A DNA stretch of 64,000 nt. Origin: Anadara kagoshimensis (lineage: Eukaryota > Mollusca > Bivalvia > Arcoida > Arcidae). The notes beneath the pieces are model-generated. The model was not told the origin of the DNA, did no database searches, and saw only the letters and a list, made by a program, of their open reading frames with translations. The position numbers and the translations under genes were made by a program. The stretch covers positions 45,260,310-45,324,309 of the forward strand of contig CM037861.1 in NCBI GenBank assembly GCA_021292105.1, read 5' to 3'. Below, in pieces: positions 1,256-50,168 of the stretch. Position 1 is the stretch's first letter, and every line of letters begins with the position of its first letter.

Positions 1256-2314
1256 TTGTTTCGATACAAAACGAGCGTCACAGGTACCTGTTTCAAAGAC
1301 GACAGTCGACCGTGAGTAACACTTTACAAGTATCAACATTCGTTTGACTTACAAAGGCTTATTTACGGAAACTGTTGTTATACTTTGGTTAATAAGTGTA
1401 TATACTGTGAAATCACTTACTTTCGTGGAATCCAATTATCATCCAATTATCATGGATCAAAGAAAAAAAATCATTTTTGAGTGATTAATCTTTGATTTGT
1501 GGTTAATAATCTAAGGCAAAAAACGTGTAAATTTGTTGATCAGGATGTCAAAGAAAGCAACGAAATTTTAGTTATTATCAAATATTTTACTACTGGTATC
1601 TGCAACACCCGTAACATACTGATCGTTTATATACCAATCTGATGCTGTACATAGAATGACTACATGTACCTCTGATTAACACAATAATAAAAACAAATTG
1701 GTATCAATATAGATTTGCAAACAAGACTAAGAACATTGGATCTGATGACAACATTAATAATCATTTTAATAATCTATGGGAGCTTTGAGCAAACGGACCT
1801 AGAACGGGAATAACCCACCCGTATTATATTAACTGATTTAAGCTAATTTGTATTTTGTAGAAATTAACAATGAAGTGAAGAAGATAATTATACAAGACTC
1901 AATACCTACTTTAAACGATACTACCCGCGAACTCACAGATTTGGTTAAGGTGTGTGAGGTCAAACTGAATGAAACAGTTGAAAGTTGTAATAGATGTACA
2001 AAAATATCATGTGCCTCTTCAAGGTATGTCACTTAAGTATTAAATGTTTGTACAATGAAGGTAGATCAGGTGGTAGAGTTCTCACTTCGTATGTAGGGTT
2101 TTTTGGGTAGTTACTGTTCTTACACACAGCACCCGGCATTTAGAAATGAAAGTCACGGTGTCCTTCAGAAGAGACCTTAAAAGCCGATGTCCCGATTCAC
2201 ATGTATTACGTCAAATAACCTTCCCAGTGGGTCAAATTGTCTGCAATTTCGCTTATAGCTGGGGAAAACTCGATATAAGTGAGATATTCTTAACTTTTAC
2301 GTAAAATCCTATTC

Positions 2315-2361
<47 letters not shown>

Positions 2362-5300
2362 CAGTCTGAAGTGTTGTAACTCTTACTTGTGTTTTTGTTA
2401 AGTTATTTAGAAACTGTTACGTTGTTGTGAATTGTTTTTGCTAAATAGTAGTTTATAGTTACGGCGCTAGGTTATAGTCAAACAACATTGACTTGACTTA
2501 ATCCATGTCCGAATCACAATCCAGAAGTAAAATAAAAACTTTGGAACTGACAAGTTAAGTTAGACACGTGGACTTCCACCAGGGAAGTGAGGCCGGGTGC
2601 ACCGAGAAGGTAAGCACCTCCTTTTTAGCTAGCCACACCTGTCACGTGGTACCAGGCTCTGTTTTACCGTTGTGGCGATTCTTCTTGTTACATATGATTA
2701 AACTGTTTTGTCTCAACAATGCAATAATATTTTTTTATAAACAGCCAGGAAGTCATAGAGGAAGAAAACACAGATTCACAAACAAAAGCCATGGAGTTAT
2801 TATTTCTACCACTTACTACTGGAGCCATTACATTAAAAGTTTTAGAGGGACAATTAGGGGACATATGTACCTTACTGGGACCTGATGCGGCCAAATTATT
2901 TATAGGACAATTTGGCAATCTTGCAAAGGACGTTAGCAAAGCTCTGTTGAAAGGCGCAAACTCTGTAATAAAGAACTCAGTTAAAGAACTGGTGCAAATT
3001 GGGGAAAATCTTGCCAAGTTTGCAAAAGATATTGGAAAAGGTCTGGGGAAATCATTAAAAGGCATAACTAAAGGCGCTGTTCGTATTTCTAAAGAAGTGC
3101 TCAACAGTATTAAAAATGTTGGCTCAAAAGTGCAAAAAGCAGCCGAAAGCACGATCAAAAATGCAGCAAAAGCCATAAGCAGTGCGACGAAAAAAGTGGG
3201 AAATCTTACTAAAAAAGTTGGAAAGGCTGCCGTGAAGGTAGTACATAGAACAGTCCACAGAGTCGCTCGAGTCGTCCGAAGTAAGTACATATAGCAATTG
3301 TACCTACGTTTTCAGGAATTAGAATTTAATTAGTATAGGACAAAAAATAACCAAGTGTTTTATTGATGTGGGGGTGTATAAAAGTACCAAATTATATATA
3401 GGTGCCTGAGAACACTTTTCGCTGTTTCAAGTTGTCGTGTCGTCACATGCGGACAGCATCGATGTGAGATGTGTTAAATATAATGAGGGGAAAATTTGAA
3501 ATAAAAATCGACGTAGCTATAAGTAGTTCTCATGTTAAATAAGAATGTGCTTCAACAGTATCATAAAAGAATGTTCACAAATATTACACCAATGAATTGC
3601 CGTTTTAGATATGAATAACATTTTTATTTTGCTTTTCAACCCCGATAAGTTTAAAAGGCTTGGTATGTCTAACTGCATACTATAATACGTCCTTACAATT
3701 TTTTTCCAATGCATATATTATACAATGTAATGGTTGACTAGATCTTCTATAAAGGTCAAGTCGGCAATTATGTATAGGATTTTAACAAGGACTATTGAAA
3801 GTCGCAAACTCTACGAGTGTTAAAAGATCCAGTGAAAAAAAAAAACTGATAGAAATCGGGTAAGATTTTGACAATATCACAGATGGTAAACACCACGATC
3901 TATGATTCCATTCCGAAAAATATCTTAGAATTCTGTTTTATTTCTGTATAATTTTTTCCTTCAAATTTTGAATTATAGGCGTGGTTAGATTTAGAAGATG
4001 GGGTAAAAGAAGTATAAGAGAAAGGCGTGGCCTGGAGGAATGCCAGAAGGTCTGTCCTTCCTGTATGAAGCTAGATGGTTCAGACTCTACTCAAACACTG
4101 AGAAAAGGTAGGTTTATATAGAATATTACACTACATACCATTTTCCATGTACTGAGTCCTTCGTAAAAGACCTTAAAACCGACTTTCCCGGTTACGGTAT
4201 GATTGGCACGCTAAAGGAAAACATTTTTGACACTTTACTTATAGCTGGTGACTTTCGATATAAGTGAAATATGTTTGATTAAAACGGAAAACCCCAATCA
4301 ATTAAATAAAAATACTCATATACTGTTAAATTTAACTGCATGTACAGTACAGGCATGTCGAAAGCTTATCACTAAGCTTACGAATCGGTGCCGAATGAGC
4401 AGCTCAATTCCGTCCCTCGTCAGAGTGGTGCCATATATATTAGGACACTTTGTAAAATTCTTCTTTATTTCATATAAAACCATATATTTTCAAAAAATTC
4501 TCAAAAAATTATTTCTTGGTCAATTTCAATGATTTTTTCATCCTTTAATGAAAAATTAGTTGTAGTTTCTTCCAATAATGTTCAAAATATTGTCCGTCTT
4601 ATAACAGTCAAGAAAACATAAGCTGAACAGCATTGTAATTTTTTAACAGCCATGTGAAGCATGATTATATAGTAGATTTCAATTTTAGAAATTTTCCGTT
4701 GAATTTTAAATTATTATCTATTAAAAACAAAGAAACTGTCTTTTTTAATTATTTTTAAGAAAAACTTCAACAAACTTTACATTTAACAGTAAAAAAAATC
4801 ATTCAAATTGACCAAGAAATAAATTTTTGAGAATTTTTATAAAATATATGGTTTTATATGAAATAAAGAAGGGTTTTACAAAGCGTCCGAATATATATGG
4901 CACCACTCTGTATATCTCAACAGCTGGTAGCTTTTCGGCCAGCCGCATTTCCACTTCTCTTTGCTGCTCAGTGTTAAACTTTTGACAGGTCTGTAATGTA
5001 CATTGTATTTTCACATTGAGAATACAAAACCTTTTCTATTACGCCTAATGTTTCTATTTCATAACTCGAGATTCTTTACTTCAGGATTGTTGTGAATATT
5101 TAAATTTTTATACAATGCAGTATTTATGTCTCTATGTTAGTAACTACAATTCAAAAATCATACAGCCACTGAAACTTTGGAGACGTAGTCATGTGACGAT
5201 TACGAGATAATAAAAGAAAACTTAGAATACACAAAATTATTCTCTTAGATACTAACAACAAGCTTTAAAATAGTAACAATAAAAAACTGACCTTGAGTCA

Positions 5301-6647
5301 AGGCCATAAAATGATTTTATAAATACTTTAAAATCTGGAAAATTTACAAAAATTTTACATGGTCACATTCGCATTCTAGTGCATATACTCGTATACCCTA
5401 ATAAACAAGTACTTGTGGTTTTAAAGGCCTCTGCGGTAGCTCAGTTGGTAGAGTCCTCGCTCCGTTAGTGTGAGGTCGTGGGTTTGAACCCCGACCGGGC
5501 CTGACCCAGGACTTGAAAATGGGTAGTGACTGTTCTTTCGCCAAGCACTCGGCATTACGAAATGAAAGTCATGGTTCTTTCGGATGGGAACTTAAAATAA
5601 ACGAGGTCCTGTGTCACGGTGGGCTTGGCACGATAAAGAACACTGCTGTATAATACCATCAACGCAACGCACACGCACAAGCAAAACTCCATGCCATTCT
5701 CAACTCAACTCGTGCTTTATAAATACTATCTATATGTGTTATATTTTAGTTTGTGGAGCTGATCATACCAAGAAACAAGATGAACTAATGAGAAGGATAA
5801 AGCTAAATCAACGCCTGCTTAATATAACGCTAGCTGCTACAGACAACATCGTCAATATGGTAAGGGGTATTTATTAAAACATTTAATTGTCTACAAATGA
5901 CGTTTAAAGTGCTATAACTTCCATTACCATGTACAGCAAATTGAATAACGCAGGTGTTTTATTTTATCTTAATAGACTAATGGTTACAGTTTAATAACCT
6001 CATAATTGGTAATATTTGAACTCTATTGATGAAGTAATTGAAATATTAAAAATTAATTACAAAGGTTGGCTCAAAAGTACAAAAAGCAGCTAAAAGCACG
6101 ATCAAAAATGCAGCAATAGCGCTAAATACTACACCGTAAAAAGATAGAAATCTGACTAAAAAGTTGGAAAGGCCGCCTTGAAGGTGATACATAAACGGTC
6201 CACAGAGTCGCTCGAGTCGTCCGAAGTAAGCTTAAGTTTTCAGGAATTAGAATTTAATCCGTATTAGGCAAGAATTATCCAAGTTACTAACCTCAAATTT
6301 GTATTACATAAAATCTACTGATTAATAATTTCTATTTTTTTCAATGTAAAAGAACCCGGTCAAGCGGCGGCACAGGTGCTCAATTGTAGTCTTAATAATG
6401 TGCACTAGCATACAGCAGTCGTAACGGGTAAATATATTTTGATTTTTATACGTTTTCAATATTACAGGTGACGTTTGATCCGAGCGTTTACAGCATAACC
6501 TCTGGTGGAGTAGTTTACACCGACCCTATAGTAACCTTGAACATCACTGGTGCAATATCAGATTTTGTGAGCAGTGAACCTTTTAATCCGATGGAAATCA
6601 CTCCATTTGCAACAGAAATCATCGACGAGCTATCACTGTTAGTTTAA
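1256..6647 (+). CDS. Clusterin-like gene A1 (5' end missing)
   Basis: Secreted clusterin/apolipoprotein J-like protein, paralogue of the minus-strand C genes. Exons seen: 1256-1311, 1861-2023, 2745-3280, 3979-4107, 5750-5859 and 6468-6647. All have AG/GT borders and the same phases as C1. Exon 1 here codes CFDTKRASQVPVSKT, matching the exon just after the C signal peptide. Exon 2 has TLNDTTREL and C-x10-C-x2-C-x4-C, the vertebrate clusterin spacing. Exon 3 carries ten gap-free 11-residue amphipathic repeats from AKDVSKALLKG to the basic end RVARVVR. Exon 4 has WGKRSIRERRG (RERR is a furin-type site) and CQKVCPSC. Exon 6 has VVYTDPIVTLNITG, like clusterin DSDPITV. Four N-glycosylation sequons are visible. 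AATAAA follows at 6663. The signal-peptide exon was not found, so the gene may start left of the window or be 5'-truncated. No internal stop was seen. Confidence 0.75.
2057..2360 (+). mobile_element. tRNA-derived SINE with (AATC)n tail, A1 intron
   Basis: A decayed tRNA-like head (GTAGATCAGGTGGTAGAG) is followed by the molluscan-type SINE body (AAATGAAAGTCACGGT, then TATAGCTGGGG, CGATATAAGTGAGATATTCTT) and an (AATC)n tail at about 2317-2360. The microsatellite is therefore the SINE tail. Orthologous insertions sit in the same intron of A2 and A3, so it predates the duplications. Confidence 0.75.
2500..2655 (-). repeat. Dispersed 'CCGGCCTCACTTCCCTGG' repeat
   Basis: Contains, in reverse, the conserved blocks ATCCATGTCCGAATCACAATCC, AAAACTTTGGAACTG, CAGGGAAGTGAGGCCGGGTGC and TAGCTAGCCACACCTGTCACGTG. 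The same family occurs many times in this window, in introns and between genes. Confidence 0.75.
4152..4311 (+). mobile_element. SINE 3' fragment, A1 intron
   Basis: Only the body and tail remain: GACCTTAAAACCGAC, TTATAGCTGGTGACTTTCGATATAAGTGAAATATG, then CCAATCAATTAAATAAA. The tRNA head is missing. Present at the same place in A2 (26,311-26,476) and A3 (43,523-43,688). Confidence 0.65.
4421..4910. mobile_element. MITE with ~115-bp terminal inverted repeats
   Basis: The left end CAGAGTGGTGCCATATATATT is mirrored by the right end AATATATATGGCACCACTCTG. The inverted arms extend over roughly 115 bases each (through TTTCATATAAAACCATATATTTT and TTTCTTGGTCAATTT) around about 250 bases without a transposase. 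It lies in the A1 intron between exons 3979-4107 and 5750-5859. A2 carries the same insertion; A3 has only a CAG-like remnant. Confidence 0.85.
5429..5715 (+). mobile_element. tRNA-derived SINE, A1 intron
   Basis: A clear pol III head: box A-like GCGGTAGCTCAGTTGGTAGAG and box B-like GGGTTTGAACCCC. It is followed by GACTTGAAAATGGGTAGTGACTGTT and the body. The 3' end differs from the A2 copy: it stops at ACTCAACTCAACT and lacks the CGATATAAGTG block. The same insertion is in A2 and A3. Confidence 0.85.
6062..6230 (+). pseudogene. Fossil copy of the 11-mer exon in last A1 intron
   Basis: GGTTGGCTCAAAAGTACAAAAAG and CACGATCAAAAATGCAGCAAT, then AAAAAGTTGGAAAGGCCGCC and AGAGTCGCTCGAGTCGTCCGAAG|TAAGC, repeat the 3' half of exon 2745-3280 together with its donor site and following intron (TTTTCAGGAATTAGAATTTAAT). 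Frame is broken by an in-frame TAA (CACCGTAAAAAG) and small indels. It is an old internal duplication, also present in A2 (28,252-28,440) and A3 (50,440-50,635). Confidence 0.8.
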
Positions 6648-15292: not shown

Positions 15293-18200
15293 TTAAATCA
15301 CGAGTGTCTTTGTCATCCGCTCTATGATTTCTTTTGCAAATGGAGTTACCATCATCGGGTTAAAAGGCTCACTGGTCACAAATCTTGATATACACCCAGT
15401 TATGTTCAAGGTCACTACAGGACCTGTGTAGACTACTCCAACAGCGGTAAAGTTGTAAGCGGTTGGATCATACGTCACCTGTAACAAATAAAAACCAATA
15501 CATTATTCCAATTCATAATTTAACTACCATGCTACTTATACTTATACCACCGGTGCCACTCTTTTACTCACCAAAACTCGAATAAAGGAACATCTTCAAA
15601 ACCGGAAACGGAAAGCTAGTAAGTTTATATTTTACCTGTGTTTCTGGTCGCTAGAAGAATTTTCCTTTTTTTAACTAATAAGATATACCAAAAATAAAAT
15701 GAAGTAAAACTAGCTCTACCAAGTACTACAGAATCCAACAACGAAGACACGATTGCAAAGGTATGAACCGATCATAGAAAAACGTAAAGAGCAATCTATT
15801 TGCATATAGAAAAGATCGAAGAATTAGGAGGTGAAGAAAGACAGACCATTATAATTATAACGTGGTTACTATATGTTGTACTAAATTCGTAGTTAAACAG
15901 TTTAGTAACCTTATAGATTATGAAATAATATATTTGAGGATCATTTATTTACCATAGTCACAATGTTTTCTGTAGCCGTGAGCGTAATATTTAGCAGACG
16001 TTGATTCACCTTTATTTTCCTCAATATTTGGTTTTGCTTTTTGGTATGATCCGCTCCACAAACTGAAATATACAAAGCATTGATCATATTTAGAGTACAA
16101 GAGTAGTTAGTTTTCCATTTATTTTAACTATAACAAACTGAAATATGTAAAAGTTTATTAGCTTATTAGAATCTTTCTCATGTGTGTAATTCTGTCGTAT
16201 AAATTCTTTACGGTATCGAAACAAAATAAAACCAATATTACATTAAAATCGAGGAAGAACTAGTACAATATTATGAACACAAATTTAATATCTATTCTTA
16301 GTCAAAAACAAAATCCAATTTTGTCTATACCTTTTGTAAGTGTTTGAGTAGCAGCTGAATTGTCGAGCTTAATACAGGAAGGACATACTTTTTGACATTC
16401 CTTCAGAAGACGATTTTCTTTTAAACTTCTTTTACCCCATCCTCCTCGAAATACATCTACAATAGTTAAAATCAAACACCATAATTATCAAGGCAGAACA
16501 TTAACATAAGTAATTGTATAGAACCTAAAATTAAAACACCATTAATCTTTGGGTTTAACGTTTTGTTGCCGATTTTCGTACTTTTCTTTCGTTGTATGAG
16601 TTACCTTTTTGATAATATATAACCATGAAATAAAGTAAATAACATATTGTGACACATCTATAAAATAGAATACGGAAAACCTAATTGATTTTGGCGTTTG
16701 AACCCAATGAATCTACTTACGTCTTACAAATCCGCCAACAGATCGAACAACATGGTGTACAGCTTTTCCGGCTTCATTTGCAACATGATGAACAGCCTTT
16801 CCAGCATCTGATGCCAGCTTTCCCACTTGGTTTGTTATATGGCCTACAGTCTTTGTGGCTTCCTTGATCGTGTGTTCAGCTGCTTTCTGTACATTTGTAC
16901 CAACATCTTTAATACTATCGAGCGCTTGGTTCGAAATATGGACAGCTCCTTTAGCTAAGTCATCTAACGATTTTGTCAAACCTTTACCAATATCCTCCGC
17001 AAATTTTGCAAGATTTTCTCCAAACTCCACCAATCCTTTTACTGAGTGTTTTATTATGGAATCGGTTTCTTTCAGTAAAACATTACTTACGTCCTTTGCA
17101 ACGTCGGCAAACTGGTTTATAAAGTGTTTTGCTTCATTTCCTAGTATGTTGCATATATCCTTTAGTTTTTCCTCTATAAATTTTACAGTTTCGACTAATA
17201 TAAGCAGCGGCATAAGTAGGAATTGTATTACTTTTTTCACCATCATTTCCTGAATATTTAGGCTGTTGGAAAGAATTGAAATAAAATTATGAAAATCGTT
17301 TACCAATGAAACAGGTAATTCTTACTCTGCAATAAAGATATCGATATAAACAGACAACTGTGCGATGCTACTTACTACGGCTTTATTGTTGTTTATTTGT
17401 TGATTTGTTGTTGAAAAAGTTCTATGAATTGAAATATAAGAAACGAAATTAATTTTCCATTTCTATAACAACAAAGAACAGTACTTATAACTGTTTCTCT
17501 CGGGTCATCTTTATCAGTTATATGCTCCAGGACGGTCAAACAAAGGCGTACAATCACCATTCCAGTCATGAAAGATCCAAACTAATCAACAACTGCATAT
17601 AGGAATACTACAACTAACAAATCATTAAACAAAGTAAAAAAGTGACAATCACGGTTGTATCTAGTCAGTCATGACATACCCTTCGAAGATGGTTTAATAG
17701 GCAACCTTTCACAAGCACAATACCTGAATACAACATCATAAACTAACATACAATAAGAGTAAGTGCAATTTATATTACACACGTGACAGGTGTGGCTAGC
17801 TAAAAAAAGGTGATTACCTTCTCGGTGCACCCGGCCTCACTTCCCTGGTGTAAGTTCACGTGTCTAACCTATTTTGTCAGTTCCAAAATTTTTTACTTTG
17901 CTTCTGGATTGTGATTCGAACATGGATTAGTATGTTTGTTTTTGATTATATGCACGAAATACTCAAACATTGAGATAACACACAAATGCTTTACAAGTCA
18001 CTTAATCCAACATCAATGTTAATGAAAAGCATACCGGACTATGTTCAATCACAATCCAAAAGGCAAAGGAAAGCTTGTACATGCAAAAGTTTATTAAATG
18101 TTAAATTGTTATATGTATAGGCTTTGCGTTTTGTTACATACCTTGATGAGGCACAATGCTCTCTCGAGCAAGCTATACAACTGTCAACTGTTCCATTTAG

Positions 18201-21200
18201 TTTGACCTCGCATATATTATTCAAATCATTAGATTCCCGGGTGGTATCATTTAAAGTAGATATTGCTTCTTTTAAAATTATGGTCTTAACTTGGTTGTTG
18301 ATTTCTAAAATTTAAAATAAAAGCTTACGTTCATTATTTATGGAATATAAATAGAAAACAATTCTGATTCTTTATGTTCATATAAATTTTTAAACAATGG
18401 TTTTAAATAAATGAATTACGAAATTTGTCTTAATATTTTACTTTCATTTGGGTGTTTCAAACAGTTAATGACAACAATTTACCACTATACTTACTATTTA
18501 TTTAGCTTATTTCGGAGAAAGCAAGATCGCAAAATATTTTATATATTTCAATATGACGGGTACAAATCTATGAGTTTTTTACTTATATGAGCCGAGTCGT
18601 TACTAAAATTTCCCGTTTCGGCTCCATCGTTGCTTCATATATCATTTTATGCGACAATATATAACCTGGGTTGGTGTTTACAATGATAAAAAAATGTACG
18701 AAAATTTGACGGGATTCTTTATGTCACGTTGTCATGACGAAGGAGTTGGCTATTTACGTAGGTTGGTGCAGCTCAAGAACGAATTAATTTTGCGTAACTG
18801 GGATGACCAAAATTTATTTAAGAAAGTAATAAAGTGAACTACCTTTCTGCATTTTCAAACTTTGAAAAACCTTGACGTAAATTCAAACATTTAAACTTAA
18901 CCCGACCTTTGAGCTATCCTTCATTGTACCCCTTGCGAACCTATGTAAATAATAAATTCTTCCGTCATCATGACGTCACATGAAAGACTGCCATTTTGTC
19001 CATAGTAAATTATAGTAAACACCCATCTAACATACGTTTTGGTGTATTAAAGGAGTTATAATGCATGAATTAGATTAAAATTAAGATTTTTAGTAACGAC
19101 TCGGTTCATGTAAGTAAATTATTAATTGATTTTAACCTTGTCATTAAAATCTTTGAAATATTAGCGTTGTTCCTGTCTCTGCAGCAGACTAAACAGATAG
19201 CAACTAGAACTGTATCTTGAGAGTCAAAAACCCCCGCCCCAACAACTTGAAGGGGTTGTTTGTTTACCGCGATCTTGGCCTTTCAGGTACATGTATAACA
19301 TTGGTTCAAGGTAATTACACACCTTAGTTTTATGACAGGCGTCCAAAGCAGTTATGAGATATGACAGACAGACAGACAGATAGACGGAACAAAGTATTTT
19401 ATCTTTGTTTGTTCATATAGTTATGGTAAATGGAAGAAATGTTTGTAGACAAATTTTAGTATAAAACAAGTTCTAGTAAACTTTCAATATTTAGATTTTG
19501 GTTAACAGATCCAAAAATCTATATACAGAGATATCCACATTTGTGAAATTTTGAATTATGTATTGATTGTAAAATTGCATTTATCGTGAAACTGATATTA
19601 TTATTCCCAATTAAAACGGAAATGATATGATTTAATTGACCCTTGTATATACATTTGCTCGGGTTCGATTACCTAACGTTTTGGCAACTATAACGACTCT
19701 TGTTTGGAATTTACAAGTTCATAAATAATTGTGTTGACTGTTAGACCTGGTCATTAGGAAGCGTTCATTTACTTACGCCCAACAACCGTCTTTGGTACAG
19801 GTATTTGAGATGATCTTTTTGTATCAAACCCACTGAAAATAAATAAATAATCATACCAAAAGACAAACTTATATCGATTATAAAACACTAAAACACAATG
19901 TCCGTATATATTGTTAGCAGGACGTTTAATTGTTCAAATACACCGTTCTTTATACAAAAATAATATAAAGGACAATCCCGAAATCGCAATCACAAAAAAA
20001 AGCAAAATCTGAAAACCTTTTTTTCGAAAAACGCGAAAATAAATGTATTCCTATTTCTTAAATCTGTTCAGAATTTTTACGTAAATAAGCCATTGGATTG
20101 TATACTGTGGCAGGTTAAAAAATCAGTGACAAAATTCGATTAAAAATAATTAAAAAAATGCTCACCTCACAGAAGCATGTAGCAGCATGGTGGAAAATAC
20201 CATTACCATTGCTGTATAAAACACCTTTCAAAATATGATGTCATTAATTAGTTGTGATAATCATAATTTTGCTTTTGAATAGTTTAATGATAAAATAATC
20301 ACGGAAACAAACTCTATATTGTAGTAATAAGATGTATAAGAATGAAGTGATATTGGTAATTATGTATAAGTTGTTTAATTGTCCAAAACTACCCAAAGTT
20401 TGTCCTTTGGGTAGCTTTTCAACATCTTCAAAATAATTCTGGTTTCATAATTTTGGTCCAAGCACTACTGATGAGGAATTGTATTCCGAAACGGCCGTCT
20501 GGTGCTGTAAAATTAAAACTGGTATAATATGTAATTAATACTGGGTCCAATCGCCGCACTTAGGTAATTTTAGAAATAGTTTATAAAATTAAACTAAAAC
20601 AACCCCAAAGTGCTCTTGGGCCATATTTAAACCAAACATAGGAAACCATGTCCAAATCACAGTTCCAGTAAAGTAAAGACTTTGAGGATTGGCAAATTAA
20701 GTTTAACAACTTTTAAGCTAACTACACCAACTACGTGTGAATTGAGAATGATGGAACTATAAGATGTCAAATATATCCAGCATAGTTTTGGTTACAGTTA
20801 AATCATACTTTCTGACGATCATACAACGTTTTGAGGACGTGATAGGCCTAGGCTCGCAATATCCCCGCGCTGCTATAAGATGCATTCCAATTTTAAAGGA
20901 ATGTAGCTTTTACGTTTAAATGTGAACATTCCAGCCATTTTAAAGACTATGAATGATTACAAACTTTTTAGCAAAACTTTGATATATGATATAGATTTAT
21001 CATTACATATTGCTGATTTTAATCGTGTCTCGAAAGTCTTTTAAGGAATTGTTAATGTTTTATATGTTAAGCAGACGTTATATGTGTTTGTTTCATCTAT
21101 CCCCAAAATAACCGCCTCAATACAAGTTAAGTACTCTTAACAGAGCATAAAACACCAATATTTCGCTTCGTTACTCAAATATTAATTGACAAAGGAATTA

Positions 21201-21472
21201 ATTTATAGATACATACTTTATTGAAAATAAAAATCGATGTTGCCAAATTGTAATTGATAAAAGATTCTTCGGACTTAAGTGTCGATTTATTAGGATTTAG
21301 ATTTCATGCATTCATTATATTTTTATTTACTTTCTAGTAGAAACTTACGAGATGAATAAATTTACTGCCCAATAAAGAAACCAAACAGTACAAAACCATA
21401 AAAATTGGGTGAAATTGTAACTTTAAATACGCAGTAGAGAGGCAGAAAGGAAAAACTTACCGTCAGTGCCAT
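15293..21472 (-). CDS. Clusterin-like secreted protein C1 (417 aa)
   Basis: Eight coding exons, all GT-AG, in transcript order: 21472-21461, 20224-20166, 19832-19777, 18304-18142, 17262-16721, 16456-16331, 16062-15953, 15478-15293 (1,254 bases). Signal peptide MALTVFYTAMVMVFSTMLLH, then ASVSGFDTKR. Residues 74-93 hold C-x10-C-x2-C-x4-C, the spacing of the vertebrate clusterin N-terminal cysteines, preceded by TLNDTTRES. Residues 153-273 are eleven gap-free 11-residue amphipathic repeats (KDVSNVLLKET, DSIIKHSVKGL and so on). CQKVCPSC (298-305), C321 and a C-terminal domain with VVYTGPVVTLNITG follow. Five NxT sequons (61, 79, 344, 365, 381). Human clusterin is a similar length (449 aa) and acts as an extracellular chaperone and apolipoprotein. 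Chaperone or lipid carriage is inferred. The RxxR site of A1/C3 is KENR here. Tail to tail with B2, head to head with A2. AATAAA (minus) at 15,271-15,276. Confidence 0.82.
17778..17955 (+). repeat. Dispersed repeat, best-preserved copy, C1 intron
   Basis: CACGTGACAGGTGTGGCTAGC, GTGCACCCGGCCTCACTTCCCTGG, TGTAAGTTCACGTGTCTAACC, TTTACTTTGCTTCTGGATTGTG, GAACATGGATTAGTATGTTTG. It defines the family for the other copies. A reverse partial copy follows at about 18,035-18,090. The C2 intron has the same at 34,861-35,028. Confidence 0.75.
20385..20515 (+). repeat. 'ACGGCCGTC' repeat, C1 first-intron copy
   Basis: TTGGGTAGCTTTTCAACATCTTC, TTGGTCCAAGCACTACTGATGAGG and CCGAAACGGCCGTCTGGTGC. It is inverted relative to 22,560-22,690, so the pair encloses the C1 first exons and promoter. 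Same arrangement in unit 2 (37,640-37,765 and 39,835-39,945). Confidence 0.75.
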
Positions 21473-23860: not shown

Positions 23861-24404
23861 TAATAAAATCAACTGAGAAGATTGGATAACTACACTAAAC
23901 AATATATATTAGAGGGTCTCTATTGTTCAAAGCGCCGTTAGTTAAACCAGTTGGTTAATAAAAAATTGTATATGTATTTTTATGTAAAGGCAATATTTTA
24001 AAAATACTCGTTAAAAGTTAATGCATACAATTGTTACTATCAAAATGAAGCAGTTAAAGTCAAAACTGTCAAAATATCAATTATATTATTTGTAGTTTAT
24101 ATAACATTTTGAATTTTCACTAACCATTTGAATAATCTAATGGAGCTTTGAGCAACCGGGCCTAGAACTGGAATAACCCATCCGTATTATGTTAACTGAT
24201 TTAAGATATTTTGTATTTTTGAGAAATTAACAATGAAGTGAAGAAGATAATTATACATTAAACGATACTACCCGCGAACTCACAGATTTAGTTAAGGTGT
24301 GCGATGTCAAACTAAATGAAACAGTTGAAAGTTGTAATAGATGTACAAAAATATCATTTGCCTCGTCAAGGTATGTCACTTAAGTATTAAGTGTTTGTAC
24401 AATG

Positions 24405-24625
24405 AAGGTAGATCAGGTGGTAGAGTTCTCACTTCGTATGTAGGGTTCGGAGTAGCGACTGTTCTTTCGCAAAGCACTCCGCTTTTAGAAATGAAAATCA
24501 CGGGGAAACCTTAAAAACCAATGTCCCGATTCACGTGTGATACGTCAAAGAACCCTCCCTGCAGCTTCGCTTATAGCTGGGAAATCTCGATATAAGTGAG
24601 ATATTCTTGACGTTTACGTAAAATC

Positions 24626-24709
<84 letters not shown>
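24405..24709 (+). mobile_element. SINE with long (AATC)n tail, A2 intron
   Basis: Orthologue of 2,057-2,360. The tail at about 24,627-24,709 is about 20 AATC units, longer than in A1 (about 11) and A3 (about 13). Confidence 0.75.
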
Positions 24710-24712
<3 letters not shown>

Positions 24713-26310
24713 ACCAATATATCGATTAAGTTTATAGTCTGTGCAAGGGAAATTTATATATTCAAAACTTAAAAATTAGTTAAAATGAAACTTATTCATA
24801 ACCGAATTTATTCTTTGTATAAACTGTTTAACAGGTATGACGATTCTTTTTGTTACATATTATTGAAATGTTTTGTTGCAATAATGCAATTTTATTTTTT
24901 TTATAAACAGTAAGGAAGTCATAGAGGAAGAAAACACAGATTCACAAACAAAAGCCATGGAGTTATTATTTCTACCACTTACTACTGGAGCCATTACATT
25001 AAAAGTTTTAGAGGGACAACTAGGGGACATATGTGCTTACTGGGACCTGATGCGGCAAAAATATTTATAGGACAGTTTGTCAATCTTGCAAAGGACGTTA
25101 GCAAAGCTCTGTTGAAAGGCGCAAACTCTGTAATAAAGAACTCAGTCAAAGAACTGGTGCAAATTGGGGAAAATCTTGCCAAGTTTGCAAAGGATATTGG
25201 AAAAGGTCTGGGGAAATCATTAAAAGGCATAACTAAAGGCGCTGTTCGTATTTCTAAAGAAGTGCTCAACAGTATTAAAAATGTTGGCTCAAAAGTGCAA
25301 AAAGCAGCCGAAAGCACGATAAAAAATGCAGCAAAAGCCATAAGCAGTGCGACGAAAAAAGTGGGAAATCTTACTAAAAAAGTTGGAAAGGCCGCCGTGA
25401 AGGTAGTACATAGAACAGTCCACAGAGTCGCTCGAGTCGTCCGAAGTAAGTACATATAACAATTGTACCTAAGTTTTCAGGAATTAGAATTTAATCAGTA
25501 TATGACAAAAATAACCAAGTGTTTTATTGATGTGGGGTGTATAAAAAGTACCAAATTATATAAAGGTGTCTAAGAACACGTTAAACTGTTTCAAGTTGCC
25601 ATGTCGTCACATGCGGACAGCATCGATGTGAGGTGTGTTAAATATAATGAGGGAAAAATTTGAAATACAAATCGACGTAGCTATAAGCGGTTCTCATGTT
25701 GAATAAGAATGTGCCTCAACAGTATCATAAAAATGTCCACAAACATTACACCAATGAATCGCCGTTTTAGATATGAATAACATTTTTATTTTGCTTTTCA
25801 ACCCCGATAAGTTTGAAAGGCTTGGTGCGTCTAACTGCATATTATAATACGTTCTTACATTTTTTTTGCAATGCATATATTATACAATGTAATGGTTGAC
25901 TAGATTTTCTATAAAGGTCAAATCGGCAATGATGTATAGGATTTTAACAAGGAATATTGAAAGTCGCAAACTCTACGAGTGTTAAAAGGGCCAGTGAAAA
26001 AAACTGATAGAAATCGGGTAAGATTTTGACAATATCACAGATGGTAAACACCACGATCTAGGATTCCATTCCGAAAAATATCTTAGAATTCTTTTTATTT
26101 CTGTATCATTTTTTCCTTCAATTTTTGAATTATAGGCGTGGTTAGATTTAGAAGATGGGGTAAAAGAAGTATAAGAGAAAGGCGTGGCCTGGAGGAATGC
26201 CAGAAGGTCTGTCCTTCCTGTATGAAGCTAGATGGTTCAGACTCTACTCAAACACTGAGAAAAGGTAGGTTTATATAGAATATTACTGTATCTACATACC
26301 ATTTTCCATG

Positions 26311-26476
26311 TACGAGTCCTTCGTAAAAGACCTTAAAACCGACTTTCCCTGTTACGGTATGATTGGCACGCTAAAGAAAAACATTTTTGACACTTTACTT
26401 ATAGCTGGTGACTTTTCGATATAAGTGAAATATGTTTGATTAAAACGGAAAACCCCAATCAATTAATCAATAAAAA
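26311..26476 (+). mobile_element. SINE 3' fragment, A2 intron
   Basis: Orthologue of 4,152-4,311, with the CGATATAAGTGAAATATG block intact. Confidence 0.6.
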
Positions 26477-26583
26477 TACTCATATACTGTTAAATTTAAT
26501 TGCATGTACAGTACAGGCATGTCGAAAGTTTAACACCAAGCTTACGATTCGGGCCGAATGAGTAGCTCAATTCCGTCCCTCGT

Positions 26584-27067
26584 CAGAGTGGTGCCATATA
26601 TATTAGGACACTTTGTAAAATTCTTCTTTATTTCATATAAAACCATATATTTTTAAAAAAATTCTCAAAAAATTATTTCTTGGTCAATTTCAATGATTTT
26701 TTCATCCTTTAATGAAAAATTAGTTGTAGTTTCTTCCAATAATGTTCAAAATATTGTCCGTCTTATAACAGTCAAGAAAACATAAGCTGAACAGCATTGT
26801 AATTTTTTAACAGCCATGTGAAGCATGATTATATATTAAATTTCAATTTTAGAAATTTTCCGTTAAATTTTAAATGATTATCTATTAAAAACAAAGAAAC
26901 TGTCTTTTTTAATTATTTTTAAGAAAAACAAATTTTACATTTAACAGTGAAAAAATCATTGAAATTGACCAAGAAATAAATTTTTGAGAATTTTTATAAA
27001 ATATATGGTTTTATATGAAATAAAGAAGGATTTTACAAAGCGTCCGAATATATATGGCACCACTCTG
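26584..27067. mobile_element. MITE, second copy (A2 intron)
   Basis: Orthologue of 4,421-4,910, from CAGAGTGGTGCC to GGCACCACTCTG. Internal sequence is nearly the same, 484 bases. Confidence 0.85.
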
Positions 27068-27578
27068 TATATCTCAACAGCTGGTAGCTTTTCAGCCAGC
27101 CACATTTCCACTTCTCTTTGCTGCTCAGTGTTTAACTTTCGACAGGTCTGTAATGTACATTGTATTTTCACGTTAAAAATACAAAACCTTTTCTATTACG
27201 CCTAATGTTTCTATTTCATAACTCGAGATTCTTTACTTCAGGATTGTTGTGAATATTTAAATTTTTATACAATGCAGTATTTATGTCTCTATGTTAGTAA
27301 CTACAATTCAAAAATCATACAACCACAAAAACTTTGGAGACGTAGTCATGTGACAATTAAGAGATAACAGAAAACTTAGAATACAAAATTATTCTCTTAG
27401 ATACTAACAACAAGCTTTAAAATAGTAACAATAAAAAACTGACCTCGAGTCATGGCCATGAAATGATTTTATAAATACTTTAAAATCTGGAAAATTTACA
27501 AAAATTTTACATGATCACATTCGCGTTCTAATGCATTTACTCGTACACCCTAATAAACAAGTACTTGTGGTTTTAAAG

Positions 27579-27900
27579 GCCTCTGCGGTAGCTCAGTTGG
27601 TAGAGTCCTCGCTCCGTTAGTGTGAGGTCGTGGGTTTGAACCCCGACCGGGCCTGACCCAAGACTTGAAAGTGGGTAGTGACTGTTCTTTCGCCAAGCAC
27701 TCGGCATTACGAAATGAAAGTCATGGTTCTTTCGGAATGGAACTTAAAATAAACGAGGTCCCGTGTCACGGTGGGCTTGGCACGATAAAGAACACTGCTG
27801 TATAATACCATCAACGCAACGCACACGCACAAGCATAACTTCTGCACCTTCGCCTATAGTTGGCGACATCTCGATAAAAGTGAAATATTCTTGACTGGTG
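27579..27900 (+). mobile_element. tRNA-derived SINE, A2 intron
   Basis: GCGGTAGCTCAGTTGGTAGAG head and GGGTTTGAACCCC. Unlike the A1 orthologue it keeps the body end CCTATAGTTGGCGACATCTCGATAAAAGTGAAATATTCTTGACTGG. Confidence 0.85.
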
Positions 27901-28251
27901 CTTTATAAATACTATCTATATGTGTTATATTTTAGTTTGTGGAGCTGATCATACCAAGAAACAAGATGAACTAATGAGAAGGATAAAGCTAAATCAACGC
28001 CTGCTTAATATAACGCTAGCTGCTACGGACAACATCGTCAATATGGTAAGGGGTATTTATTAAAACATTTAATTGTCTACAAATGACGTTTAAAGTGCTA
28101 TAACTTCCATTACCATGTACAGCAAATTGAATAACGCAGGTGTTTTATTTCATCTTAATAGACTAATGGTTACAGTTTAATAACCTCATAATTGGTAATA
28201 TTTGAACTCTACTGATGAAGTAATTGAAAAATTAAAAATTAATTACAAAGG

Positions 28252-28440
28252 TTGGCTCAAAAGTACAAAAAGCAGCTAAAACCACGATCAAAAATGCAGC
28301 AATAACGCTAAATAATACACCGTAAAAAGATGGAAATCTGACTAAAAAGTTGGAAAGGCCGCCGTGAAGGTAATACATAAAAGGTCCACAGAGTCGCTTG
28401 AGTCGTCCGAAGTAAGCTTAAGTTTTCAGGAATTAGAATT
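28252..28440 (+). pseudogene. Fossil 11-mer exon in last A2 intron
   Basis: Same internal duplication as at 6,062-6,230; the TAA in CACCGTAAAAAG is shared. Confidence 0.75.
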
Positions 28441-28945
28441 TAATCCGTATTAGGCAAGAATTATCCAATTTACTAACCTCAAATTTGTATTATATAAAAT
28501 CTACTGATTAATAATTGCTAATTTTTCAATGTAAAAGAACCCGGTCAAGCGGCACAAGTGCTCAATTGTAGTCTTAATAATGTGCACTAGCATACAGTTG
28601 TCGTAACGGGTAAATATAATTAGATGTTTATACGTTTTCACTATTACAGGTGACGTTTGATCCGAGTGTTTACAGCATAACCTCTGGTGGAGTAGTTTAC
28701 ACCGACCCTATAGTAACCTTGAACATCACTGGTGCAATATCAGATTTTGTGAGCAGTAAACCTTTTAATCCGATGGAAATCACTCCATTTGCAACAGAAA
28801 TCATCGACGAGCTATCACTGTTAGTTTAAAACTTGTTTTAAGATAATAAACAAATGAAACTAAAGATTTTGTTTTGTAGTATTTTCATTACATGATTTCA
28901 ACACATATTTATGTAATGCCGAAGTTTGCTTGCGTGTGTGAGAGT

Positions 28946-41462: not shown

Positions 41463-41656
41463 AAATTAACAATGAAGTGAAGAAGATAATTATACAAGAC
41501 TCAATTCCTACTTTAAACGATACTACCCGCGAACTCACAGATTTGGTTAAGGTGTGCGATGTCAAACTAAATGAAACAGTTGAAAGTTGTAATAGATGTA
41601 CAAAAATATCATTTGCCTCGTCAAGGTATGTCACTTAAGTATTAAGTGTTTGTACA

Positions 41657-41880
41657 ATGAAGGTAGATCAGGTGGTAGAGTTCTCACTTTGTATGTAGGG
41701 TTCGGAGTAGCGACTGTTCTTTCGCAAAGCACTCCGCTTTTAGAAATGAAAATCACGGGGAAACCTTAAAAACCAATGTCCCGATTCACGTGTGATACGT
41801 CAAAGAACCCTCCCTGCAGCTTCGCTTATAGCTGGGAAATCTCGATTTAAGTGAGATATTCTTGACGTTTACGTAAAATC

Positions 41881-41932
<52 letters not shown>
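41657..41932 (+). mobile_element. SINE with (AATC)n tail, A3 intron
   Basis: Orthologue of 2,057-2,360 and 24,405-24,709. Tail at about 41,881-41,932. Confidence 0.75.
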
Positions 41933-41935
<3 letters not shown>

Positions 41936-43522
41936 ACCAAATATATCGATTAAGTTTATAGTCTGTGCAAGGGAAATTTATATATTCAAAACTTAAAAAT
42001 TAGTTAAAATGAAACTTATTCATAACCGAATTTATTCTTTGTATAAACTGTTTAACAGGTATGACGATTCTTTTTGTTACATATTATTGAAATGTTTTGT
42101 TGCAATAATGCAATTTTATTTTTTTTATAAACAGTAAGGAAGTCATAGAGGAAGAAAACACAGATTCACAAACAAAAGCCATGGAGTTATTATTTCTACC
42201 ACTTACTACTGGAGCCATTACATTAAAAGTTTTAGAGGGACAATTAGGGGACATATGCACTTACTGGGACCTGATGCGGCAAAAATATTTATAGGACAAT
42301 TTGGCAATCTTGCAAAGGACGTTAGCAAAGCTCTGTTGAAAGGCGCAAACTCTGTAATAAAGAACTCAGTCAAAGAACTGGTGCAAATTGGGGAAAATCT
42401 TGCCAAGTTTGCAAAAGATATTGGAAAAGGTCTGGGAAAATCATTAAAAGGCATAACTAAAGGCGCTGTTCGTATTTCTAAAGAAGTGCTCAACAGTATT
42501 AAAAATGTTGGCTCAAAAGTGCAAAAAGCAGCCGAAAGCACGATCAAAATTGCAGCAAAAGCCATAAGCAGTGCGACGAAAAAAGTGGGAAATCTTACTA
42601 AAAAAGCTGGAAAGGCCGCCGTGAAGGTAGTACATAGAACAGTTCACAGAGTCGCTCGAGTCGTCCAAAGTGAGTACATATAGCAATTGTACCTAAGTTT
42701 TCAGGAATTAGAATTTAATCAGTATATGACAAAAATAACCAAGTGTTTTATTGATGTTGGGGTGTCTAAAAGTACCAAATTATATATAGGTGCCTGAGAA
42801 CTCTTTTCGCTGTTTCAAGTTGTCGTGTCGTCACATGCGGACAGCATCGATGTGAAGTGTGTTGAATATAATGAGGGGAAAATTTGAAATACAAATCGAC
42901 GTAGCTATAAGCGGTTCTCATGTTGAATAAGAATGTGCCTCAACAGTATCATAAAAATGTCCACAAATATTACACCAATGAATCGCCGTTTTAGAACATT
43001 TTTATTTTGCTTTTCAACCCCGATAAGTTTGAAAGGCTTGGTGCGTCTAACTGCATATTATAATACGTCCTTAAATTTTTTGCAATGCATTCATTATACA
43101 ATGTTATGGTTGACTAGATCTTCTATAAAGGTCAAGTCGGCAATGGTGTATAGGATTTTAACAAGGACTATTGAAAGTCGCAAACTCTACGAGTGTTAAA
43201 AGAGCCAGTGAAAAAAACTGATAGAAATCGGGTAAGATTTTGACAATATCACAGATGGTAAACACCACGATCTATGATTCCATTCCGAAAAATATCTTAG
43301 AATTCTGTTTATTTCTGTATCATTTTTTTCTTCAATTTTTGAATTATAGGCGTGGTTAGATTTAGAAGATGAGGTAAAAGAAGTATAAGAGAAAGGCGTG
43401 GCCTGGAGGAATGCCAGAAGGTCTGTCCTTCCTGTATGAAGCTAGATGGTTCAGACTCTACTCAAACACTGAGAAAAGGTAGGTTTATATAGAATATTAC
43501 ACTACATACCATTTTCCATGTA

Positions 43523-43688
43523 TTGAGTCCTTCCTAAAAGACCTTAAAACCGACGTTCCCTGTTACTGTATGATTGGCACGCTAAAGGAAAACATTTTTG
43601 ACACTTTACTTATAGCTGGTGACTTTTCGATATAAGTGAAATATGTTTGATTAAAACGGAAAACCCCAATCAATTAACCAATAAAAAT
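43523..43688 (+). mobile_element. SINE 3' fragment, A3 intron
   Basis: Orthologue of 4,152-4,311. Confidence 0.6.
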
Positions 43689-44314
43689 ACTCATATACTG
43701 TAAAATTTAATTGCATGTACAATACAGGCATGTCGAAAGTTTAACACTAAGCTTAGGAATCGGCGCCGAATGAGCAGCTCAATTCCGTCCCTCGTCAGCT
43801 ATATATATCTCAACAGCTGGTAGCTTTTCAGCCAGCCACATTTCCACTTCTCTTTGCTGCTCACTCTTTAAGTTTTGACAGGTCTGTAATATACATTGTA
43901 TTTTCACATTGAAAATACAAAGCCTTTTCTATTACGCCTAATGTTTCTATTTCATAACTCGAGATTCTTTACTTCAGGATTGTTGTGAATATTTAAATTT
44001 TTTATACAATGCAGTATTTATGTCTCTGTGTTAGTAACTACAATTCAAAAATCATACAGCCACTGAAACTTTGGAGACGTAGTCATGTGACAATTAAGAG
44101 ATAACAGAAAACTTAGAATACAAATTATTCTCTTAGATACTAACAACAAGCTTTAAAATAGTGACAATAAAAAACTGACCTTGAGTAAAGGCCATAAAAT
44201 GATTTTATAAATACTTTAAAATCTGGAAAATTTACACAAATTTTACATGGTCACATTCACATTCTAGTGCATATACTCGTATACCCTAATAAACAAGTAC
44301 TTGTGGTTTTAAAA

Positions 44315-44617
44315 GCCTCTGCGGTAGCTCCGTTGGTGTGAGGTCGTGGGTTTGAACCCCGACCGGGCCTGACCCAAGACTTGAAAGTGGGTAGTGACTG
44401 TTTTTTCGCTAATCACTCGGCATTACGAAATGAAATTCAAGGTTCTTTCGGATGGGAACTTAAAATAAACGAGGTCCCGTGTCACGGTGTGCTTGGCACG
44501 ATAAAGAACACTGCTGTATAATACCATCAACGCAAGGCACACGCAAAAGCAAAACTTTTGCACCTTTGCCTATAGTTGGCGACGTCTCGATAAAAGTGAA
44601 ATTTTCTTGACTGGTGC
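44315..44617 (+). mobile_element. tRNA-derived SINE, head deleted, A3 intron
   Basis: Orthologue of 5,429 and 27,579, but GCGGTAGCTCCGTTGGTGTGAGG shows that most of the tRNA-like region between box A and the variable arm (about 25 bases) is gone. Body ends at CGATAAAAGTGAAATTTTCTTGACTGG. Confidence 0.8.
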
Positions 44618-45252
44618 TTTATAAATACTATCTATATCTGTTATATTTTAGTTTGTGGAGCTGATCATACCAAGAAACAAGATGAACTAATGAGAAGGAT
44701 AAAGCTAAATCAACGCCTGCTTAATATAACGCTAGCTGCTACAGACAACATCGTCAATATGGTAAGGGGTATTTATTAAAACATTTAATTGCCTACAAAT
44801 GACGTTTAAAGTGCTATAACTTCCATTACCATTTATTGGAGGATCGGAGTAGTAGTTGACCAGTGTGGACGTGTGTTTACAACATGTAATTGTATATAGC
44901 TTTTAAGGTAGAAAGAAGAGAATGCTGGTCCTATAGAGTGTACCAAAATATCAAGCTCAGCATAAAGCACCTGGTGATGTATGCAAATATACAAATATGA
45001 TCCTTTATAAATGGCACCAAGAAGTTATACACATGAACATTCTATCGCAAAAATAATGGTCGCCATTCGTTATCGTCAGTATATCAATAGTATACATAGT
45101 ATTACCTGTATATTCATTTACCTGTATTAATATAACCAGGTAGACTAGATGATTGACAGTTAGATATCACACTGTATGACATTTATTCACATAATAAATA
45201 AGAATCGTTCTGTTCACTGTCAATTTGAATTTTGAGTGCTAATCGCATCAAT

Positions 45253-46026
45253 ATGGGCAAGCATAAACAAACTAGTGGAGCCCCTGTAAAACGACCCCGG
45301 GCGTCTAGTAGTGAGGACGATCCTGAAGTATTATTGGACACATTTCTTGGAGCCCTATCCAACCCGGATATGTTAGATCGTTTTGTAAACTCGTTGTGTA
45401 GTATTCCTCTATTAAAGGATAAAATCGTACAGTGCCTAATGCCTTCGCTAGAGGACCAAATTACTAATATACTCCAGCCCTTAAAAGAAACTGCAAATGA
45501 TTTAAAATCCTCATTAAAAACTATGCAAACAAACTATGACAAACTTGAAGACCGATATGACGATTTGGAGCAATACTCCAGGCGCCAAAGTGTTAGAATA
45601 GCTGGTGTTGGAGAAATTGACAACGAGAACACCGATGACCTAGTCGTATCGTTTGCCAAGGATGTCCTGGATATCGACCTGGAACACGTCGAAATTGATC
45701 GGTCACACAGAGTCGGCAAAGCTTCACAGAAGAAACCAGTCAGGGATATCATCGTGCGTTTTGTGTCTTATAAATCCCGCCGCAAAGTGCTTAAAGCAAA
45801 GCGTAATATGTTCACTTATAACCAACAGAACAACACTCGCTACCAAATCAACGAAGATTTGACCAAGAAAAGATCTTTTCTAGCATTCCAGGCTCGGCAA
45901 TTAAAACGTAAGGGTCACATAGACGACACATGGACATTTGATGGCAAAATCTTCATCAAACTACCCGACAGTCGTGTACAAGTATGTACAAAGATCTCCG
46001 ACTTGCCAAACGCTGGTTCTACATGA
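45253..46026 (+). CDS. LINE ORF1, RNA-binding chaperone-type protein
   Basis: 257 aa from the ATG in ATCAATATGGGC; an upstream in-frame TTG exists but ATG is the better start. Basic N-terminus (MGKHKQTSGAPVKRPRAS), a coiled-coil-like stretch (LKSSLKTMQTNYDKLEDRYDD), then LEQYSRRQSVRIAG, a junction typical of L1-type ORF1 proteins, an RRM-like region with RDIIVRFVSYKSRRKVL and a basic C-terminal region with NEDLTKKRS. By family, it binds element RNA and helps reverse transcription. The frame is open. Confidence 0.8.
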   Translation: MGKHKQTSGAPVKRPRASSSEDDPEVLLDTFLGALSNPDMLDRFVNSLCSIPLLKDKIVQCLMPSLEDQITNILQPLKETANDLKSSLKTMQTNYDKLEDRYDDLEQYSRRQSVRIAGVGEIDNENTDDLVVSFAKDVLDIDLEHVEIDRSHRVGKASQKKPVRDIIVRFVSYKSRRKVLKAKRNMFTYNQQNNTRYQINEDLTKKRSFLAFQARQLKRKGHIDDTWTFDGKIFIKLPDSRVQVCTKISDLPNAGST

Positions 46027-46388
46027 GACCGTACACATAACTCTCTAATGTTAACTTGACACTTTTCATACCAGATACTCTTCTTTTTACAACCGTAAAA
46101 TGGTTGGTTTTGTCCTATCCATGTTTATTCTCACATTTTTGTGTTATAAATGTAAGAATCTTATAATTTATTTTTATTTTCTCTTAACTTCTCTTTATCG
46201 TGACTCAACTGGTTGTTTTTATACGTGTATTTATAGCTTAGTTACTTTTATGTTACATATTTGTCCCACCATGTTCAAATCCATCTTAATATTTGATACA
46301 CATGATTAACATTATGGAATATAATAAGTACTGGTGGGACAATGTATACTTAAAATATAATTTATATATTTATTATTGTAAGATACCA

Positions 46389-49300: not shown

Positions 49301-49618
49301 TGTCAGTTGCGCAATTTCTCGAGCAATCTTAAGCGTCATCTTTTTGATCACTTTATTGAGAATGACCCATCATGTCCTAAATGTGGATCCCCATCTGAAG
49401 ATAATCAGCACTTCTTATTTGACTGTGTAGCTTTTTCTCAACCCAGGCAGAAATTATTTAATGCTATTTATTCTATAACTGGCTTACCTTCTATAGACCT
49501 TCAAATTCTTCTCCATGGTTCTTCAGAATACTCATACGGTAAAAACACTCAATTATTTCAAGCAGTACACAACTTCATTAAAGATTCTCAACGATTTAAA
49601 TCTAATAATTCCAACTGA
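46389..49618 (+). pseudogene. LINE ORF2, endonuclease/reverse transcriptase, dead
   Basis: First part 46389-46739: hydrophobic lead IELIILLLLMG, a 2A-like CIEINPGP, then endonuclease start (HNNVCSVFSKLD, ITESHLD). At about 46,727 a T run seems one base short (GAATTTTATGGG), ending the frame at TAG. The other frame continues to 49,618: VVYRPPSS, GDFNMN, SNHAPV (usually SDH), RT blocks PNKPPGPDDISPRIL, SNYRPIALTSV, FCDISKAFNRVWH and GVPQGSVLGPFLFLLYIND, then LFADYT at 48,428-48,442. The catalytic FADD box has Tyr (TAT) for the second Asp. C-terminal CPKCGSPSEDNQHFLFDC is a zinc-knuckle-like motif. Frameshift plus the FADY change make this copy inactive. Confidence 0.9.
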
Positions 49619-49942
49619 GTCACTCTTTTGTACATATTACTCTTACTTTCTTAACCCTAATAATTCACATCTTCTGTTCTGTTATTTTCAACCTCTTTTT
49701 GTTGTTTAACTTTGCTAACTATTAGCTACTCCCTTTTGTATATATATCTCTCTTTCACTCATTTTCTCTCTTTTTTTCATTTTGTTTTTTTTCATTGTTC
49801 TTTGTTTTCATTCTGTTTTATATTAATTTTTTCTCTTCTTCTTTTTTTTCTACATTTATTTTTCAATATTCCAACAAAAAATGAATTTTTCAAATTTTTA
49901 GTAGTTACAATTATATTATCATAATTATTTGCATAACACTAG

Positions 49943-49945
<3 letters not shown>

Positions 49946-49982
<37 letters not shown>

Positions 49983-50048
49983 TTGTGTATTGATATTATT
50001 ATTCATTGTGTATTATTATTATTAATATTAATATTATTATTATATTGT

Positions 50049-50103
<55 letters not shown>

Positions 50104-50120
50104 TTGTGTATTATTATTAC

Positions 50121-50167
<47 letters not shown>
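49946..50167. repeat. (TTA)n microsatellite in LINE 3' UTR
   Basis: Several TTA runs broken by TCATTGTGTATTG-type spacers; the spacer unit itself recurs about four times, so this is a nested tandem repeat. Confidence 0.9.

Positions 50168-50168
<1 letters not shown>

Follow-up and report, generated by a model that had tools for sequence, protein, structure and literature searches.

Putative secreted proteins with a clusterin-like first cysteine cluster are encoded by a tandem gene family in the bivalve Anadara kagoshimensis

According to an excerpt of PMC12527946, clusterin is a conserved secretory glycoprotein of vertebrates, in which two sets of cysteines are joined by five antiparallel disulfides and the disordered tails at the furin site, enriched in F, H, R, P and S, serve the chaperone, receptor and lipoprotein functions. 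Among molluscan proteins, the SepECP cuttlefish egg case proteins are secreted glycoproteins, which have been likened to clusterin for their cysteine-rich domains and their disulfide dimer, as stated in an excerpt of PMC4500399. With calculated masses of 71 and 74 kDa and with 50 and 55 cysteines (same excerpt), they differ from the proteins described here and were rejected as relatives, since such cysteine numbers indicate a different kind of protein.

Long amphipathic helices are shared between the family reported here and apolipophorin-III (PF07464) together with other amphipathic lipid-coat proteins, which show weak matches to exon 5 of our genes. However, these matches lie far below the cut-off of 36.3 bits and are of the kind expected from composition. 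To our knowledge, apolipophorin-III-type families have neither cysteine clusters nor two-chain processing.

We analysed a window, i.e. the whole stretch of DNA under study, of 64,000 nucleotides on contig CM037861.1 of Anadara kagoshimensis (positions 45,260,310 to 45,324,309). The proteins predicted from it resemble clusterin (PF01093; structures 7zet and 7zeu) in being putatively secreted and of similar length, in the C-x10-C-x2-C-x4-C spacing of cluster 1, in having N-x-T sites and two cysteine clusters that flank a predicted processing site, in their short segment at the C terminus and their positively charged tail before the cut, and in the order of these modules with the clusters on the same sides of the cut. 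Unlike clusterin, they have a long amphipathic helix in the region that separates cluster 1 from the cut and no counterpart of clusterin's alpha-chain tail and helix 7, and the stretches upstream of cluster 1 and downstream of cluster 2 are shorter. From the sequence, support for an architecture like that of clusterin comes from cluster 1 and from the order of the parts. We do not grant membership in the clusterin family, because we tested for the fifth disulfide, for clusterin's cluster-2 spacing and for a Pfam score above the cut-off and found none of the three.

Gene models and the duplicated array

The sequence-only reading had proposed an eight-exon gene at 15293-21472, and this open reading frame is real: the gene C1, on the reverse strand, starts with an ATG at 21472 and ends with a stop codon at 15293, encodes 417 amino acids, and has seven introns, all of which are of the GT-AG type with compatible splice phases. 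Exon 1 (21461..21472) carries the ATG and the first four codons up to a GT donor, exon 2 (20166..20224), bounded by GT-AG, the hydrophobic core of the putative signal peptide, and exon 3 (19777..19832) the N terminus of the mature protein. Cysteine cluster 1 is located in exon 4 (18142..18304), which in C1 has no Pfam Clusterin match of its own, unlike its homologue in C3. It is followed by exon 5 (16721..17262) with a hydrophobic segment and a long amphipathic helix, exon 6 (16331..16456) with the W-G-K-R|S site and a CxxxCxxC motif, exon 7 (15953..16062) with the last cysteine of cluster 2 and a helix-like stretch containing R-L-L-N-I-T, and exon 8 (15293..15478) with the C-terminal segment and the stop; all of these exons lie on the reverse strand.

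The same reading had spoken of a multigene family, and the array indeed extends beyond the C1 interval, comprising the open copies C1, C2, C3 and A1 as well as the broken copies A2 and A3. On the reverse strand, C2 (32336..38722) is a second open eight-exon copy of 414 amino acids. C3 (58840..63801, reverse strand) is the third, with exons 2-8 at 58840-62843 and exon 4 at 61648..61810. Its exon 1 (four codons, 63790-63801) was located as a pattern match with two mismatches, a match that occurs on average 0.06 times in shuffles of the window; the C3 protein used in all searches has 416 amino acids and excludes these four codons. A1 (1256..6647) is a forward-strand relative with open exons 3-8, and no exon 2 was found upstream inside the window. 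Both remaining copies are on the forward strand and broken. A2 (24224..28829) has gaps of 16 bases in exon 4 and of one base in exon 5, whereas A3 (41463..51021) is interrupted by a gap of one base in exon 5 and an in-frame stop in exon 6; a retroelement is located between exons 7 and 8 of A3, and exon 3 was found in neither copy. The window contains three units of A (forward), MAPEG (forward) and C (reverse), which make up a segmentally duplicated array with matching stretches about 17 to 26.5 kb apart, and the family is recently duplicated.

For the mature part, dN/dS ranges from 0.22 to 0.56 in the six pairs among C1, C2, C3 and A1, and therefore the exons are very probably coding. C1-C3 have an N-terminal hydrophobic core (seen by inspection, with hydropathy computed for C3), which is predicted to be signal-peptide-like; the start of A1 was not found in the window. 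Judging from the sequence, the gene family is well established, and its products are probably secreted glycoproteins with a signal-peptide-like start and an N-x-T site.

Synonymous divergence between C2 and C3 is uneven along the gene, with a dS of 0.47 in exon 4, 0.17 in exon 5 and 0.08 in exons 6-8, for which gene conversion could be the cause. The start of exon 5 exists in two forms, one shared by C1 (16721-17262) and C2 (33794-34335), the other found in C3 (60290-60843) and A1. Since C1 and C2 share the different start, C3 keeps the form that it has in common with A1, and it is also the copy that best matches Clusterin.

Cysteine clusters and sequence similarity to clusterin

The claim that cluster 1 has exactly the spacing of clusterin is correct. 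Cysteines 74, 85, 88 and 93 of C1 correspond to 102, 113, 116 and 121 of the human protein, and these first four cysteines are identically spaced in C1, C2, C3, A1 and clusterin, whose fifth (-x7-C) is absent here. When nine cysteines are scattered over 393 residues with uniform probability, C-x10-C-x2-C-x4-C arises in 15 of 400,000 trials, a null which ignores the natural clustering of cysteines and concerns a motif chosen after being seen; given a four-cysteine cluster of span 20, this spacing is one of 153 arrangements. The N-D/E-T-x-E/S sequence reported in front of cluster 1 is found as N-D-T-T-R-E-S in C1 and C2 (N-E-T-R-E-S in human clusterin), whereas C3 reads N-D-T-T-Q-D and A1 N-D-T-T-R-E-L.

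A second cluster had likewise been noted as CxxxCxxC, and C-x3-C-x2-C is present in exon 6 of C1, C2, C3 and A1. The distance to its fourth cysteine, with which exon 7 starts, is 16 residues in C1, C3 and A1 and 14 in C2, so that cluster 2 as a whole is C-x3-C-x2-C-x15-C, with x13 as the last gap in C2. Here the family departs from clusterin: the human cysteines are at 102, 113, 116, 121 and 129 and at 285, 295, 302, 305 and 313, and the steps of 4-3-16 (C1, C3, A1) or 4-3-14 (C2) contrast with 10-7-3-8, the agreement with C-x9-C-x6-C-x2-C-x7-C being limited to CxxC. Instead of the 5 + 5 cysteines of clusterin's five interchain disulfides, there are 4 + 4. Neither cluster has the fifth cysteine, as would be the case with one disulfide fewer, and we count this in favour of a clusterin-like build. 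Outside the clusters there is one cysteine in exon 5; C1 has an extra one in exon 8, and A1 has one at its N terminus.

The homology to clusterin, for which a profile search of the spliced proteins had been proposed as a check, is partly supported. In a scan against all 24,736 Pfam models, Clusterin (PF01093; gathering cut-off 23.6 bits) is the top match of the C3 protein, at E 0.0022 with a score of 17.5 bits, which is below the cut-off, and the C1, C2 and A1 proteins do not match it at E up to 10. Since E values near 1e-3 also come from exon 5, the whole-protein value of C3 alone says little: this low-complexity amphipathic exon draws unrelated amphipathic families at E 4e-4 to 1e-3, and suprabasin repeats match C1 at 0.001 and C3 at 0.0032. 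Exon 4 is not of this low-complexity kind. The sole Pfam match of C3 exon 4 is Clusterin (E 1.1e-4, 21.8 bits, again below the cut-off), with residues 50-90 collinear on profile positions 53-93. None of 30 shuffles of this exon with fixed cysteines matched Clusterin, the best E for any family being 0.03. Exon 4 of A1 matches at E 0.032 and that of C1, C2 and A3 has no Clusterin match in Pfam, so that two of the five copies match, one of them strongly. When exons 5-8 of C3 and A1 were scanned one at a time (8 pieces), none matched Clusterin in Pfam.

A profile that we built from 26 clusterins gives C3 a score of 8.2 bits, above 400/400 full and 400/400 cysteine-fixed shuffles; C1, C2 and A1 do not exceed their own shuffles. 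Aligning human clusterin 63-135 with cluster 1 of C1 yields a score reached by 1 of 1000 shuffles, in which the cysteines were not kept in place, and for exon 6 to the end against the alpha-chain part the C1 score is reached by 436 and the A1 score by 137 of 1000. Profile-profile comparison with hhalign gives P 0.0016 (probability 16%) for the N-terminal part, P 0.012 (3.6%) for the full length and no signal for the C-terminal part against clusterin (P 0.49). In the reverse search, the 99th percentile of the shuffles is exceeded by 6 of 120 clusterins with exon 4, all closely related to each other, by 16 of 120 with the full profile, again closely related entries, and by none of 118 with exons 6-8; these counts exclude sequences that hmmsearch did not report (for exon 8, 42/120 real and 429/1200 shuffled ones were reported). 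Searches of the PDB returned no clusterin for C1, nor at E up to 10 for the family profile or the exon-4 profile. With C3 exon 4, 7zet came last of seven matches (E 8.8), with ribosome-recycling factor ahead at 0.02.

The likeness claimed for the C-terminal segment could not be upheld in its original form. DPIVTLNITG is carried by the A copies and not by C1-C3, which read GPVVTLNITG, and the alignment to clusterin's DPITVTVPV is not beyond chance: for the C-terminal segment alone, 325 (C3), 305 (C1) and 445 (A1) of 2000 shuffles score as high against the human segment. After global and local alignment we do not regard this likeness as significant. With R-L-x-N-x-T included, a score as high comes from 12 to 14 of 2000 shuffles, this motif having been picked after being seen. 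For C3 against 13 clusterins the figure is 7 of 300, with 13 of 26 sequences dropped for lacking R-L-x-N-x-T. The segment after this motif has 69-78 residues in the 13 clusterins and 69-71 in the family. The C-terminal segments may be homologous. The AF2 model of exon 8 (six copies; first GTG codon read as M) had a pLDDT of 43, too poor for a fold search.

In a collection of 5.8 billion proteins, C1 at full length had no relative at E <= 0.01 among 5515 candidates, and residues 282-416 of C3 had none at E <= 10 among 125. As the search method depends on 5-residue words in common, it can overlook distant relatives. A clusterin query showed that the collection contains nr, UniRef and other eukaryote entries, which suggests that the family is rare, fast-evolving or unannotated. 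Viral and prokaryote contigs held no relatives, and the four NCBIfam families matched by C3 are all far below their cut-offs. No invertebrate clusterin appeared in the titles and abstract starts among the literature matches listed, which is thin evidence of absence, as subscription journals are mostly uncovered.

Exon 5, the putative processing site and competing explanations

In exon 5, a hydrophobic stretch precedes about 150 residues whose periodicity is that of an amphipathic helix. Hydrophobic moments were calculated for C3 and A1 and climb to 0.91 and 0.80, respectively, beside W-G-K-R. The last 35 residues before the cut carry a net charge of +5 to +13 and 2-5 histidines in C1, C2, C3 and A1; this tail is rich in Val, Arg and Gly/Ala and shares His and Arg with the clusterin tail, but not its bias for Phe and Pro. 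W-G-K-R|S, a predicted site of the processing type, is invariant in the same four copies and lies between the two clusters, with 10 residues to cluster 2 compared with 57 in human clusterin. Gly-Lys-Arg is a site of the amidation type. A low-confidence model of exon 5 (four copies) shows three helices at pLDDT 46, too poor for a fold search. The best match of exon 5 to ApoLp-III (PF07464) is that of A1 (E 5.4e-4, 20.6 bits, short of the cut-off), followed by C3 (E 0.0025); other matches below the cut-off are to Senescence, phasins (some of these families being lipid-associated by name), the suprabasin repeat and unrelated helical families.

We tentatively explain these features, with a confidence that stops just short of even, by a family built like clusterin, i.e. 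two-chain, secreted and disulfide-linked, with a clusterin-type hairpin, an amphipathic helix, a cationic tail and a role at lipid or hydrophobic surfaces. Clusters 1 and 2 may pair antiparallel through four disulfides, positions 0, 3 and 8 of cluster 1 facing 0, 3 and 7 of cluster 2 with an additional outer bond. Cleavage of the precursor at GKR would give two chains that these four disulfides keep together, and the freed cationic tail, possibly amidated, could together with the amphipathic helix coat lipid or exposed hydrophobic protein surfaces outside the cell in the manner of clusterin. We infer cleavage, amidation, cysteine pairing and activity, and by analogy a chaperone or lipid role with a tail that binds lipids or unfolded proteins.

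Whether this build reflects ancestry is a separate matter. The homology that had been proposed is backed by the match of C3 exon 4 and by the spacing of cluster 1, and what speaks against it is that exons 5-8 show no significant similarity to clusterin, that the scores are below the cut-off, that the fifth disulfide is absent and that the 5.8 billion proteins yielded neither relatives nor intermediates. We favour common descent with clusterin, which is unproven and to which we give somewhat less than an even chance. A similarly guarded estimate applies to the specific form of a deeply diverged non-vertebrate clusterin homologue, in which a four-disulfide scaffold would have been tandemly expanded and the binding tail would be a long amphipathic helix with a cationic, possibly amidated end.

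Another reading, which we rate only a little below the clusterin-like build, holds that the proteins are an orphan secreted family of amphipathic helices, resembling apolipoproteins or lipid-coat proteins and not descended from clusterin, and that cluster 1 is a convergent helical hairpin stapled by disulfides. It would account for exons 5-8 having no Clusterin match, for the sub-cut-off matches of exon 5 to amphipathic families (e.g. ApoLp-III, Senescence and phasins), for the cluster-2 spacing unlike that of clusterin and for the zero relatives in a database with nr and UniRef entries. However, it leaves unexplained that C3 exon 4 picked out Clusterin from an unbiased library and passed the shuffle control, and that the order of modules and the sides of the cut on which the clusters lie are the same as in clusterin. 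The charge of the tail (+5 to +13 in 35 residues, with 2-5 His), the hydrophobic moment of up to 0.91, the W-G-K-R with its amidation-type Gly-Lys-Arg in all four open copies and the occurrence of broken copies among the tandem duplicates are also what one would see in the precursor of an antimicrobial amphipathic peptide, from which the Val/Arg/His helix before W-G-K-R would be released or exposed, amidated at Trp and membrane-lytic, while the cysteine clusters would only serve to fold or silence it. We regard this as unlikely: by inspection there is no second processing site upstream that would bound a short peptide, and therefore the helix remains attached to the chain that carries the cysteines (R-R does occur inside the tail of C2, C3 and A1), and no peptide family is among the Pfam matches listed. 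Finally, the gene models could be wrong or the copies decayed, in which case the protein would not be produced at all, as A2 and A3 are broken and the models rest on sequence rather than transcripts; the open frames of C1, C2, C3 and A1, their dN/dS well below 1 and their matching splice phases make this very improbable.

If the proteins are indeed related to clusterin as we favour, the origin of a main extracellular chaperone and the clusterin architecture would predate vertebrates, and the array would offer natural variants of the disulfide domain and the tail for testing. If they are not, they would form a secreted orphan family whose likeness to clusterin is a remarkable case of convergence.

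Neighbouring elements in the window

A tRNA-like Rfam match (13687-13750, reverse strand, 36.5 bits) was not called by ARAGORN and may represent a repeat of tRNA origin. The retroelement located between exons 7 and 8 of A3 is a remnant of the non-LTR type (46290-49618, forward strand) and contains a reverse transcriptase frame of 963 residues (PF00078, E 1.4e-32), and the frame preceding it encodes GCIEINPGP, which we take to be similar to a 2A ribosome-skipping peptide. Single-frame MAPEG genes (PF01124) are arranged in tandem on the forward strand at 12085-12669, 30250-30840, 52930-53514 and 56186-56770, with a broken copy near 8593-9121. The two copies scanned match the family at E 8.5e-11 and 9.9e-11, and these genes have been duplicated along with the A and C genes.
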